DNA from: Gonapodya sp. JEL0774
Lineage: Eukaryota > Monoblepharomycota > Monoblepharidomycetes > Monoblepharidales > Gonapodyaceae
Assembly: GCA_027604505.1 (NCBI GenBank)
Contig: JADIIX010000007.1
Coordinates: 124,001-188,000, forward strand
Reading direction: 5' to 3'
DNA length: 64,000 nt
The stretch's first letter is position 1. Each line of letters opens with the position of its first letter. The position numbers and the translations under genes are program-made. Under the pieces are notes generated by a model, which was given only the letters and a program-made list of their open reading frames with translations, was not told the origin of the DNA and ran no database searches. Shown piece after piece: positions 9,325 through 16,195 of the stretch.

Positions 9325-12300
9325 TCACCAACCAGAGCTGCTACCATAGTTGCTGTAGTTTGCAACCTCGGTATCTCCTCGTCCGTAGCCGCCCCTGGTC
9401 GAGCCGTAACCACCACCAGCGTAGCCTCCACGTGAAGACCCATTAACGGAGTTGCCACCGCTCGGGCAGTCTCTTGAGACATGCTGTACGCGAGTGCGCT
9501 ACGGTCAACTTTCGTTTCCAGTGAACTTAAATAAACGCAACTCACCCCAACCTCTCCACATTCGTTGCACTTGCGCCTTTGTATACAGCGGGAATGTATT
9601 GCTCAGTGTTTCACTAAGCACAAAAGGCTCTGTTTACATACCGATCAGGCTGTGGGCAGCCAGACACTTCGTGATCCTTGCTTCCGCACCGGACGCAAGA
9701 CCCCGGGGCCCGTGGCTGTCGTGGTTCTTTGAAGAGAAAACGTAAGATTCATAAACAATTCGCGCCAAGTTACAGAACTTACTTGGGCAATCAATGGCGT
9801 GGTGACCCTAAATTCATTTAATCAAAGTGGTGTGAAGTGCGACAGGAGATAGTGCGAAATGATTGTAACAAACCTCCTCCCCGCAGTTTCTATTTTTCGC
9901 GTTTCGGAAGCAAGGTAGTGTTAATGTAGAAACTCGAATTTTTAAACGACCTGCAGTCATCCCACCGACACATATCAGGCATTGAGCAGTGCTTTTGGAG
10001 GTGGCCTTCAAAATGTCCATATTGGGTGACATCACGTTCGGTGTGAAGGAACAACAACATTCTTGCTAAAAACAGCGAGATACACACCTGCCGCTCCACA
10101 CTTTTTGCATATGATCTGATGAAGGCCAATGTTTGAAATGACAATACGGTGTTGCGCATAAAGCGAGGAGATTCCCTACCTTTGGACACTCTGCCCCTCG
10201 GTGGCCTGTTTCGCCACACTCACGACAGGTCTCAAGCCTATTCAGAAGGAATACCTTCCGTATTCCTTGTATCTTCCAATGGTGCACGAGGAACTCACCT
10301 GGGATTCGTACACTCACTGCAACACAGACACCACGGTAACTTTGGGCAATGACATTGCTAAAATAGTAAACTACCTACCTCTTGTTGTGCCCTTCTTGGC
10401 CGCAATTGAAGCAAGCTCGCCCACCGCCGCCGCCGCTGCGTGTGTCGGGCTCAGAGCAATCGCGACCTGTAACATGGAAACGTGAGATCTCTCTTGGCTG
10501 ACGTGGGGGGGGCGGGCTGACAACACGACCACCCACTCATATGACCCTCTTGACCACACCTATAGCATGCACGATCGCCACCTCCACCAACGCCACGGGT
10601 GTCGGGTTGCGAGCAATCCCGGCCTAGCAGGCGTCTTAAGTCACATCACAAGCCAAGACAGTGGGAATTGAATGTCAGCACTCACTCGTGTGTCCGGTTT
10701 CACCACAACGGAAGCATGCGCGATCGCCTCCGCCACCCTGACGTCCGTTGCTAGCCTGTTTTGCTGCTTCATCCCTGCACTCGCGAGCAAAGTGACCTTC
10801 CTGTGAGTGGTCGTATAAGCCCAATGTTCATTCTTAGGAATCACCACAAGTTTGCTCACCTTTCCACAACGCCTACACGTAACGGTCGCCGCAGAAAGAT
10901 GCGGCTTTGGTTCTCGTTCTCCTGGGGCGTTAGTGCATTCCCTAAATACAACAAATGACGTTTTCCGTCTATTACTCTGTGAGCTGCATTTCTCATCGAA
11001 AGCAAACACGCACCGCCCGAAATGGCCAGCTTTTCGAATTCAGGCATGAGCCATATGGCAATTTCATGAGCTAGACATCGGAACACTTAACATCTGATTT
11101 CACACTTGCCTTGTCCACACTTCCGGCAAGTCTCTGTGGATGGATTGCGGCACTCCCGAGAATAATGTCCAGCTGATAGTGTACAAGGAAGAGAATCAAA
11201 TACGATCTGATCTCGAATCGAGAATCAACTGTTCCGTATCTTCCTCACTTTGTCCACATTTGCGGCACGTCTCGGTCGATGGATTTGGACATTCTCTGTG
11301 AACAAAGAGTTTACAGTGATTTGGTGGGCAGGGCATCTCTACGTTCTTCTTGGGCACATACCTTGCAAAATGCCCCTCTATAACATTGTCGTCGCGGAAA
11401 AGAAAACGGTCGATTACCGAAGATGCAGCCAAGCCTCCGCATCATCTTACTTTGTCCGCACTTTCGGCAGCCAGACGAGGAGAAATCACCGCCTCGGCCA
11501 CCTTCCGAGGATTGAAACCCTGCTCCAGATCTGGCTCCCCAGGTACCTGGGTAAACCTCTCGCCCACCAGTTGAAGCGTCGTAGCCACTGCCAAAATAGA
11601 TCGGCTTGTCTAACGAACAGAACACAATGGCAAGCTGCGCGCGAGAACCCACGGCTCCGGCACAGCACTCCCGGCATTTCCACTCGACGAACCCCCAATC
11701 AAGCCCCAGCCTCCCCATCCGTTGGAGGCACTTGATCCACTAGCCCCTTGGTCCAGAGAAGGTTGTGTCACACTTCCAGAACCCCAACCACCGCCAACAG
11801 TCGCTCCACCTCCCGATCCCCGACCACCACCAACAGCGGCGCCACCTCCAGAACCCCAGCCACCTGTAGAAGATCCACCACTGCCTTGTGTTCCCGAACC
11901 CCATCCCGACCCCGCACCCGCTTGCGCACCGGAACCCGCGCCTGAGGTACTTTCACTCTGTGCGGCGCCTGCGCTGACCTCCCAACCACCGTGCGTTACT
12001 GCAGCAGTCTCTGTAGCGGCTGTACCTGATCCCCACGCCGCGGCACCTCCACCTACACGAGGGGGGGAAGCAATTCCTGATCCCCAGCCACCAGTACCCC
12101 CACCACTTGTTTGATCCACACTACCACTGCTGATTGCCCACCCGGAGCTAACACTTTGAACCGCAGACCCAGCATTGGTGGACTGCTCAACCATGCTCGA
12201 ACCAGCTCGGCTTGGGGAGCCCCAACCTGACCCTGGAACTTCAGCAGTGTGCAAGAACAATGATTTGTAAATGTGAAAGCGATCGGAGCCTCCTTCAAGG

Positions 12301-15300
12301 ACCAACCTGTGTCAGCATTGCTCTGTTCTCCATTGTCACCTGATTCACCAGGGTAACGGCCCCTGCTGCTGAGCATCGGACCATGAGAGGATCCCCCTAA
12401 GCCAAAAATATACGATCGGCCATGAAAATACAAGGATTGCTTTTGTGATCAACGGTTTTACCTATGTTGTTCTTCGCCTTGGATCCCGTCACAAAACCTG
12501 CAACAACAAGATGTTGAGCTTGTGGGAACATTTTGCCCGTAGATCTGACTCACAGAAACTCGACACGTGTGATGCTTGGCCACATCTTGTGCAGCTGGTG
12601 TTCCAGAGGAATAAGTCAGGCTATTCGAATGGTTCGCACTGGAAACCAAACGCACGATTCGTCTTTCCGTTTGCATGCATTAGATCGGTGATCGAACTCC
12701 CCGCAACGAAGACAACTGCTCGAAAAAATACTCAACAAAGGAGCGCTTTAGCAAATGGGGCGGTGACTTACCCTCCCTTCGCGATTACTTGTTGGCGGAA
12801 TGACAACTTTTCAAATTGCCAATCGGGGATCTAGATCAAAAAGACGATGATTAAGCGGGGCAACAGAATATAGAAGGTTTCGATGAAATTTCAGATGTTA
12901 ACACTCACGTTGAACACACCTTTAACTTTTTCGCGTTCAATCGGCTCCCCGGCTTCTGCAAGCTTCTCCAAGTTTTCTGGGGTGTTCCCACCTTCTGCCA
13001 ACAACAAACAACTGAAATTGTCGAAGCTGCAGATAAACGCCACAAGAATCAATTACATCATACCATTCGCGATGAACATGCGGTCATAAGTGAAGACACC
13101 AGTCCACCTCTTGTTCCTTCCGTTCCGAGAGTCAACAAGTTCCTTGCTTGGGGGGATCGCTCTATGCGAAAAGTCACACCATCGATGCTTTTGAGATCAA
13201 AAGATCGTTCCCAACAAAATAGTGACGCACTTGTCCACCGCGATTAAATGAAACCGCATATTGTTCTCGCGGAGCTTTAGCTCGAGCTTCTGGTAGTCCA
13301 TTCGGGGAGCGAGAAGGTACTGCCTAAGTTTCTCAGCTTCAACTTTGGCCTTTTTGGGAGTGATGCCCTTATCAAGTACTACGATCTGAATTTGTGCATT
13401 GATTCCTGGTCAGGATATTTGACCGCAACGAACAAACAATGGCTCATCCAAATGTACCTCGGACCATATCGCCTCGGCTTCCTCTTCAGTAAGTTCTTGA
13501 ACCGGTGGGAGCTCGGCCTGAACAATGAATCGACAAGGACTTATCTGAGAAGAATTTGTTGACTGCGAACGGAGCCAACACTTACTTCTTGAGGCTGTTC
13601 AGCAGCAGGGTGTTGGCACTGTGACAATCACCATCGAAACATCAGAAAACACATCTCCCTGTCATCAAAGTTGATACGATTTACCTCTGCATTATTTCTT
13701 CCACTCGACAACACTTGAAGCATCGCCGCTCCCTCTTCCGGAGACTTATCCACGATACTCCACAAGCCAGTCCCCGCGTTTGCATGTTCACCTGCCGCCT
13801 GCCCGCCCGCTGATGCACCCCAGCCAGTGGTCGCTTGAAAATTGGCAGGTGGATCACTCGCAGACGATCCCCATCCACTTCCACTCCCACCGTTGCCTCC
13901 CCATCCGGTGCCTTGGGTCTCAGATTTGAAAGGAGCCGTGGTGTTGAGGAGCTCGGAAGCGCTCGTTGAAGATCCCCATCCACCAGCATTGCCGCCAGTG
14001 CTACTACCTCCCCAATCGGTGGTTACCGGGTCGGACTTGGTGGATGTGATCTGGATATTGGTTGCTTTGGGAGCACTCGAGGAGGAATGTGAGTCACCTC
14101 TGGTCTCCCCTCCCAATCCATTTGCCCCTGCTCCATTGTTTACAGAAATGATGTCACTTGTTCCCATCTCGGTCTCAGAGCGCGTTGCTTCAATTTTGTC
14201 GGCCCCAGGATCAGGAGTTGCCCATCCAGACGAAGAAGTTGCGACCTCTGGCACTCCCCTGTCGTTTGCAATTTGCATCATCGTCTCTGTGCTCGTATCT
14301 GCATCAGCTCCACCGTGCGAGATCTTTGCCGGAGAAGACTTGTTCATCTCTTCACCACTCATGGTAACCGCCAACCCACCCGCACTCAGTTCAGTCTTAA
14401 CAGTCTCCACAAAATTGGCGGGATCGGTTCCTGCACCACCATTTCCAAATCTCCAACCTGACGATCCCACCGAAGGAGGCTCTGGTACACCCCACGTGCT
14501 GCTCGTGCTTGATTGGAGAGTTTGGGCGGACTCCGGCGCTTGTTCGGTGGTGGACTCCAAGACTGGTTGGACTATAACTTCGTCCTTATGCATGCGTTTC
14601 TTGGGATTCGAACCCATCATTTTGCTGAAATCAGGAACAGACGCGCTTGACATTGAAAGGACCTTTACGATTTGAAGCGGCTCCTTGTTTTGATCTGGCT
14701 CAGCCGTCTCATCAGCTGGCGCGATCTTGGTCTCGACCATCTCCAAGCTCCGCTCCCCATCGAAGAACTGGAGTTCAGAGCTTAGGTCAGGCTTTTGAGA
14801 GTTTCGGGTGAATGGAAGGAGCTGTGGAGTGTGGCATTGCAGAAACGAAAATCATCAAATTAGTCTCAGAAATAAACAAACCATGTTTCAAAGAGCGGAC
14901 GATCACGCAAGATCAGTTTACCATATCACTACCCTCTCCCGTGTGAATCTCCGTTATATCATTATCCCCTGCCTCGTCGCTAATGCCCCGTTCCGTTGAC
15001 ACTTTCATCTGAAGGCTATCTGTCACTTCTGGCTTGCTGATCAATACCTCGACGGAAGTTTCGAGGTCAGTTTTCAGCTCCGTCAGGTCCGAAGTGCTCG
15101 GTCCGTGGAAATTCTGACGGTGCCAGATGGGTGTTATGGGATAACGGGAGCGGTAAGACAAGAAACAGGCTCCATGCATAGTGGATAATGCCGATTACGA
15201 ACCTCGTTCTCTGCGCAATCGCTCACTTTTTGATTTTGCTCTCCCTCTAGAATAAAGTTCGAAGATGGAGTTGGAGGTCTGATAGTGGTACTTTGGATAA

Positions 15301-16195
15301 CGTTCGAAGAACCTGGGGTAGAAGGAGTGGAGCTTTGGAGAACGTTCGAGGAACTTGGAGTTATGGGCGTAGTGCTTTGGGCAACGTTTGAAGAACTTAG
15401 AGTTGTGGTAGTTGTACTTGGGGTAACATTGAGAACGTTGTTACAAATTCCCTGATGAGAAAGATATCGGAGAAGAAAATGCGAGAGGAAATTGCGAAAT
15501 GAGAGCAAATGAGTTGAGAAACGGATATAGTTGAACGCAGGAAGTGAAACCATGACGTCCCCTTCTCATGAGAAACCCTTCCCCACCATCACCAAAAAAA
15601 ATAAAGTATTGCAGATAATGTGAATCCGCTCCTATCACATCCAGGCATTCAAGAACATTGTGCAGATTCCAACATTGGCATGACTCGACCCAGTGTTTGC
15701 ACTCACCTCTTCGTTCAGGATCTCTTCACTCCGCTTTGTCCTCCATTCCCCATCCACAATGTACTTGTACTTCACGAGTCCGATCTGATCCGCCACATGC
15801 GATATACCAGAGTATGCAAGAGAGCAACAACTGCGGCTCAGATCAAGGTATTACGCACCTTCTTCACCTCAATCTGTACAGCGTGAGTGCCCTCGAGGTT
15901 TCTATCAAGGGGGTGAATGATCCTAGCGTAGGGATCGGGCATAGTTACGCAGATGACAAAACCAGCCTGTGTAAGTGCATCTTAACTCACCAGCCATCCC
16001 AGTCTCCCGCGACGGAGACTTTATCGGCAGGGTCAGACCACTCGAACTAATTGTTCCATTAGTGAAGAGAAGCAGTGAGACGTGCGTGATCGGACTTGTA
16101 ACTGGAGAAAGCTTCACCACACGGTTCTAACCGGAACTCACGAGGACTTTAGTGGGACCGGACTCAGCTTGGTCCGACATCTCAAGTTTCTCCAT
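9325..16195 (-). CDS. CBM48-like / GW-WG repeat / 14x CCHC zinc-knuckle protein
   Basis: I joined 36 exons in one frame; they total 4,254 bases, a 1,417-residue protein. Exon 1 is 16142-16195; the largest are 13685-14821 and 11653-12232; the last is 9325-9483. Residues about 19-95 form a CBM48/AMPK-beta-type domain (FEWSDPADKVSVAGDWDGW, VKYKYIVDGEWR, ICNNVLNV). A Ser/Thr repeat follows, then a GW/WG-rich region within residues about 340-605 (for example GGNAGGWGSS, SGSGWGSS), then about 160 unrecognised residues (611-773). Zinc knuckles 1-2 (CLRCGEFDHRSNAC, CTRCGQASHVSSFC) precede a second GW-rich region (about 851-1040). Twelve more knuckles follow, such as CRKCGQKGHFAREC and CYRCGQEGHMSRDC. 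The tail is Gly/Tyr/Arg-rich and ends GSSSGW. Zinc knuckles imply RNA or single-stranded DNA binding; GW repeats suggest Argonaute contact (inference). A fusion of two gene models cannot be fully excluded, but no internal stop or long gap was found. Confidence 0.85.
15297..15422 (-). repeat. 42-bp coding tandem repeat (three units, one degenerate upstream copy)
   Basis: Three consecutive 42-base units (15297-15338, 15339-15380, 15381-15422) share the core ACGTTCGAAGAACTTGG on the + strand. Read on the minus strand they encode 14-residue units of the type SSSNVAQSTTPITP. A degenerate copy precedes them at about 15251-15296. They form the Ser/Thr linker directly after the CBM48-like domain. Confidence 0.85.

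Follow-up and report, generated by a model that had tools for sequence, protein, structure and literature searches.

Can a single fungal gene join a glycogen-binding-type domain to GW/WG repeats and a long array of zinc knuckles, and what might such a protein do? The question is raised by positions 9325-16195 of a 64,000-nucleotide (nt) stretch of the genome of the zoosporic fungus Gonapodya sp. JEL0774 (contig JADIIX010000007.1, positions 124,001 to 188,000 of the forward strand; hereafter the window). We rebuilt the splice model of this locus and found a minus-strand gene that starts with an ATG at 16195, stops with a TGA ending at 9325, and has 36 exons (4,215 nt) that join into a reading frame of 1,404 residues with zero internal stops. 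From its N terminus, the predicted protein consists of a domain of the AMPK1_CBM family (CBM, carbohydrate-binding module), a Ser/Thr-rich stretch, a first GW block, an orphan domain, two zinc knuckles, a second GW block, twelve more knuckles, and a Gly-rich tail ending in GW (9325-9465, including the stop). The whole gene is supported by this splice model, by a knuckle-threading control, and by partial identity to the public record HDU93_008727; the predicted domain order is striking, yet it comes from a single genome. An original prediction, made from the DNA letters alone, had described 36 exons in one frame with no internal stop and the same order of domains, including 14 CCHC knuckles arranged 2 + 12, and our own model agrees on each point, with the knuckles further borne out by a Pfam zf-CCHC score of 181.4 bits, the strongest signal in the protein. 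The earlier length was 4,254 nt and 1,417 residues, and the 39-nt gap is presumably a matter of splice choice.

Exons 1-13 were obtained with a dynamic programme that scores splice sites and codons, and for exons 14-36 we worked manually on a three-frame reading with the CCHC pattern as a guide. Nearly all introns have GT-AG borders (34 of 35, the other being GC-AG), and 34 of the 35 are 56-113 nt long, the remaining one measuring 255 nt. The resulting protein contains fourteen perfect CX2CX4HX4C knuckles. Knuckles 1 and 2 (CLRCGEFDHRSNAC and CTRCGQASHVSSFC; residues 767-800) lie at 12496-12714, and knuckles 3-14 (residues 1075-1358) lie at 9466-11469, where they are cut by introns and include three 16-nt micro-exons located within knuckles (exons 20, 23, and 32, at 11377-11362, 11029-11014, and 9889-9874).

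Since the knuckle exons had been placed by motif, we used a control in which frames were threaded through introns and perfect CX2CX4HX4C knuckles were counted; it covered the 12-knuckle array (knuckles 3-14). Threading of 11600-9325 recovered 12 knuckles in one frame with a score of 11.66 (12 less 17 introns at 0.02 each). The opposite strand gave 0 knuckles, and so did all 60 dinucleotide shuffles. Of 60 overlapping stretches taken elsewhere in the window, from both strands at 30 places, two gave 1 and the other 58 gave 0. Given 12 knuckles in the real stretch and no more than 1 in any control, we rejected the idea that the array is a product of free intron choice. Intron positions within the array also recur. 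In each of its first three knuckles an intron follows residue 6 (phase 1), two of these three also have one following residue 11 (phase 2), and the fifth and sixth knuckles share one following residue 10 (phase 1). Introns at matching places in neighboring knuckles are the pattern expected from duplication of exon units. Elsewhere in the genome, 16 of the 17 zf-CCHC matches fall outside this gene, and other CCHC sites, some of them clustered (L006 at C60:56938-57329, L002 on C90, and L003 on C39), are perhaps true Gis2/CNBP relatives.

The tryptophans of the two GW blocks stand next to glycine more often than composition predicts. Block I (residues 326-600; 13691-14515) has 8 of 9 Trp with a Gly neighbor versus 2.8 expected on same-composition shuffling, block II (residues 821-1060; 11512-12370) has 11 of 11 versus 5.6, and the whole protein has 21 of 28 versus 7.9 expected from shuffles, values that are too favorable because part of block II is a DNA tandem repeat (36 nt, 2.6 copies, 11771-11864) whose Trp units are not independent. 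At the detection threshold applied, block I was free of tandem repeats. Within the blocks, 14 of the 18 intervals between successive Trp are 10-30 residues long.

The orphan domain (about residues 603-766; exons 8-13; 12772-13618) matched no Pfam family above cut-off, and no second copy was seen in the genome. A PDB search with this domain and the first knuckles (217-residue query) returned 24 matches up to E 10, all weak, the best being a designed protein (E 0.041, query residues 119-157) and the next LIN28 (E 0.079); most others were LIN28 or retroviral nucleocapsid proteins over the knuckles. Residues 630-765 presumably resemble the conserved domain that lies between the knuckles of ascomycete CnjB-type proteins, a likeness we treat as a lead only: a protein search aimed at it, which covered residues 595-813 within a slice of 397 residues (446-842), had 824 candidates and gave no match at E ≤ 10.

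At the N terminus, residues 17-96 (exons 1-5; 15416-16147) matched AMPK1_CBM (PF16561) in Pfam at 45.7 bits, above the cut-off of 26.8 (E 7.7e-12), and the closest solved structures by sequence were AMPK beta-1 chains (best E 4.9e-7 in a PDB search). By family, this domain would fold as a beta-sandwich. The profile score is 35.8 bits in the public model, which lacks exon 5, indicating that the end of the CBM profile is supplied by that exon. In the PDB-search alignment, whose letters we checked, W100, K126, W133, and N150 of AMPK beta-1 are kept as W37, K65, W72, and N88, and L146 and T148 are changed to E84 and I86, leaving four of six sugar-contact residues. The available text of one study calls W100, K126, W133, and N150 critical (PMC4032982), and that of another gives W100, K126, W133, L146, and T148 as direct contacts in rat beta-1 (PMC2642990). 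Any link of this domain to sugar would rest on the four of six residues retained.

These data bear on what the domain is used for. That it binds no sugar, its fold having been reused for dimerization or for protein or nucleic-acid contact, is a real possibility that we place somewhat short of even. Yeast Crp1/Mdg1-type proteins are an example of such reuse. The altered equivalents of L146 and T148 point this way, as do the classical CBM_48 model, which stayed below its cut-off (15.6 versus 22.4 bits), and the five Pfam matches up to E 1 in the spliced protein, which include neither an enzyme nor a kinase-binding (AMPKBI) domain. Retention of W100, K126, W133, and N150, in contrast, counts against it. 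The protein is not an AMPK beta subunit, an identity rejected for the lack of AMPKBI among those matches. Genome searches with PF16561 and PF04739 gave no match, which does not imply absence, as the first also missed the known CBM with its short exons and the controls of the second were silent too. Directly after the CBM, the remainder of exon 5 (15227-15415) encodes the Ser/Thr-rich stretch, whose unit is specified by a 42-nt tandem repeat (2.9 copies, 15291-15412).

GW/WG blocks raise the question of a partner, and the genome contains genes of RNA interference (RNAi). We found an AGO-clade Argonaute on contig C1, whose PIWI stretch is nearest AGO10 (218 bits) and AGO2 (216 bits), with fungal QDE-2 at 133 bits and Piwi at 113 bits at most. 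RNA-dependent RNA polymerase (RdRP; PF05183) matches occurred on four contigs (C58, C3, C21, and C1; L013-L020), and RNase III matches occurred on two, in one case interrupted by a stop. Together, these matches indicate that RNA silencing is likely present, and such genes would make an Argonaute hook possible for this protein. Among the residues that we take to form the Trp pockets of human AGO2, L650, Y654, K660, L694, E695, and Y698 are identical in the aligned Gonapodya Argonaute, F653, V591, and R688 are replaced by Y, I, and K, and P590 and F659 are replaced by D and R.

Zinc-knuckle proteins with GW repeats already have a fungal precedent, and the novelty here lies in the glycogen-binding-type module at the N terminus. 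The available portions of the literature on Cryptococcus neoformans Gwo1 (CNAG_00520) term it GW182-like (PMC4778953), identify it as a Gis2 ortholog that moves to processing bodies (P-bodies; PMC5017699), and report it in complex with Ago1 in P-bodies and as recovered in a transposon-silencing screen (PMC6643885). By these descriptions, Gwo1 resembles the window protein as a fungal GW protein of zinc-knuckle kinship; that it carries knuckles follows from the Gis2 label and is not stated outright in those portions, which also mention no module of the glycogen-binding type. A fungal zinc-knuckle annotation is likewise seen in ascomycete proteins listed as "zinc knuckle transcription factor (CnjB), putative," such as AFLA_051900, in the part of the source available (PMC6325891).

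The knuckle array of the window protein is of the same CxxCGxxGHxxxxC kind as those of Gis2, CNBP, and Byr3. The latter are short proteins not known to have GW blocks or a CBM. AMPK/SNF1 beta subunits share the AMPK1_CBM, in which the window protein keeps four of the six sugar contacts, but it has GW blocks and knuckles in place of AMPKBI. GW182/TNRC6 proteins share the GW/WG blocks; neither UBA nor RRM was among the five Pfam matches up to E 1 in the window protein, which has knuckles and a CBM instead, and we rejected GW182 orthology on this ground.

In what it shares with GW-repeat zinc-knuckle Argonaute partners such as Gwo1 and CnjB, the window protein has low-complexity GW/WG blocks and CCHC knuckles, with an Argonaute in the same genome. 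Tetrahymena CnjB, a zinc-knuckle protein, had been offered as the precedent by the original prediction. Its GW repeats and its interaction with the Piwi protein Twi1 are confirmed in the available part of the literature. CnjB comes from a ciliate, and we know of no CBM in it. The earlier statement that no described protein adds a glycogen-binding-type module holds in that the CBM is the new part, but it had left the nearest precedent, Gwo1, unnamed. The open-licence PMC literature yielded no paper linking Gonapodya with Argonaute, or Gis2 with Argonaute and CCHC, and none combining AMPK1_CBM or a glycogen-binding domain with a zinc knuckle.

We tentatively favor, at a little under an even chance, a single gene for an RNA-associated scaffold, with knuckles on RNA and GW blocks on Argonaute in one cytoplasmic body. 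The 12-knuckle array, aided by the first pair, would bind single-stranded RNA as Gis2/CNBP-type proteins do, and the two flexible GW/WG blocks would present twenty Trp, most of them spaced by 10-30 residues, to the Trp pockets of the Gonapodya Argonaute. The protein might then gather Argonaute and target RNA into a cytoplasmic body, by analogy with Gwo1 and Ago1 in the P-bodies of Cryptococcus, while its CBM would either tether the complex to alpha-glucan or be turned to protein contact, two roles that appear about equally likely. An Argonaute role is plausible by this analogy. Of the original prediction, the gene structure and domain order stand. Its Argonaute-associated RNA-binding scaffold is a reasonable proposal that gains from the RNAi genes and the GW context; the variability of fungal Trp pockets counts against it, and the binding itself we still infer.

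Two points count against the splice model. The splice and codon programme, left unguided, failed to trace the 12-knuckle array, its best path having 25 exons and ending at 10176, and among the 30 exons that reach 30 nt, codon bias favored the assigned frame in just 10, each of which lies upstream of the array. Other points weigh against the favored scaffold. The Ser/Thr-rich unit and part of block II are repeats at the DNA level, two of the six sugar contacts are changed, and the D and R in place of P590 and F659 depart from the presumed AGO2 pocket. In the available text of a 2025 survey, three conserved Trp pockets are a feature of animal AGO proteins and those of fungal Argonautes are variable (PMC12477606), and Gwo1 deletion mutants of Cryptococcus are described as having normal small interfering RNA profiles in the portion of the report available (PMC8022950). 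Finally, as no orthologue was found in our protein searches, nothing shows selection on the arrangement.

The protein may instead be a Gis2/CNBP-like binder of single-stranded nucleic acid in which Gly/Ser/Trp-rich linkers serve as spacers for condensates or translation control and make no Argonaute contact, the GW appearance having arisen from Gly-rich repeat expansion. This is possible, though on balance we doubt it. It is consistent with the knuckle array being the strongest signal, with the tandem repeat inside block II and the 30% Gly content of that block, and with the variable Trp pockets of fungal Argonautes noted above. The frequencies of Gly-neighbored Trp in both blocks, above those of same-composition shuffles, argue for more than spacing, as does block I, which reached 8 of 9 with no tandem repeat detected.

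Whether the CBM belongs to the same gene as the GW blocks depends on exons 5 to 7. The sole database relative we found was the gene's own record, HDU93_008727 (2,249 residues, Gonapodya sp. JEL0774), which is identical to our model over residues 1-84, 160-766, and 822-1080. This record fuses three genes over 18150-6204 of the minus strand (an upstream gene, the target gene stripped of its knuckles, and an S9 peptidase), omits exon 5, and skips most knuckle exons or reads them in another frame, so that 0 of the 14 knuckles are complete in it. The 16-nt micro-exons inside the knuckles are the likely reason that automatic annotation lost the array. Because HDU93_008727 joins exon 4 to 6 and exon 6 to 7, the link between the CBM and the GW blocks is backed by two partly independent predictions.

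The locus could alternatively hold two genes, one for a small CBM and Ser/Thr protein (exons 1-5 to a stop at 15134) and one for a GW-knuckle protein starting from an ATG in exon 7. We regard this as unlikely. The joining of exons 5, 6, and 7 rests on prediction, and the exon 5-6 junction together with exon 6 is the least certain link from the CBM to the rest of the predicted protein. All junctions following exons 3 to 9 are in phase 0, placing little constraint on the frame, and the public model is no strong witness for joining, as it also fuses neighbors. Two genes would, however, leave exon 6 unexplained. This linker (14922-15113) is in frame, scores best among the six frames in the frame assigned, and is connected to exons 4 and 7 in the public model.

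A carbohydrate-responsive silencing scaffold, whose N-terminal module would bind glycogen or alpha-glucan and tie Argonaute and its RNAs to the energy reserve, we consider decidedly improbable; if true, it would connect small-RNA control directly to stored sugar, a connection on which we found no paper in the open-licence PMC literature.

The architecture, and with it the single-gene scaffold that we favor, is a prediction from one genome. Protein searches in the full-protein length range returned the gene's own record alone, among 1,397 candidates for residues 600-830 and among 38 for residues 8-100 (E ≤ 0.001, 5.8 billion sequences), the latter saying little on distant relatives since the AMPK beta-1 PDB value of 4.9e-7 scales to about 0.016 in 5.8 billion. 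The same domain order was sought in relatives and none was found, in searches that were narrow and with a public model of this gene that has no complete knuckle.

If the gene does encode one protein, an early-diverging fungal lineage would gain a candidate GW/zinc-knuckle Argonaute partner of a kind described in Cryptococcus and, in a looser sense, in ciliates, with a glycogen-binding-type module added to that kind. Whether reserve carbohydrate is linked to RNA silencing or to mRNA storage could then be tested directly with a small purified domain. The locus also illustrates how an entire array of domains can escape public annotation when its splicing involves 16-nt micro-exons.

Two further genes flank this one on the minus strand. 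The upstream gene (18150-16505) may encode an RNase P subunit of the Pop3 type (Pfam E 0.15, below cut-off), and the downstream gene (9101-6204) encodes an S9 prolyl oligopeptidase-type peptidase.

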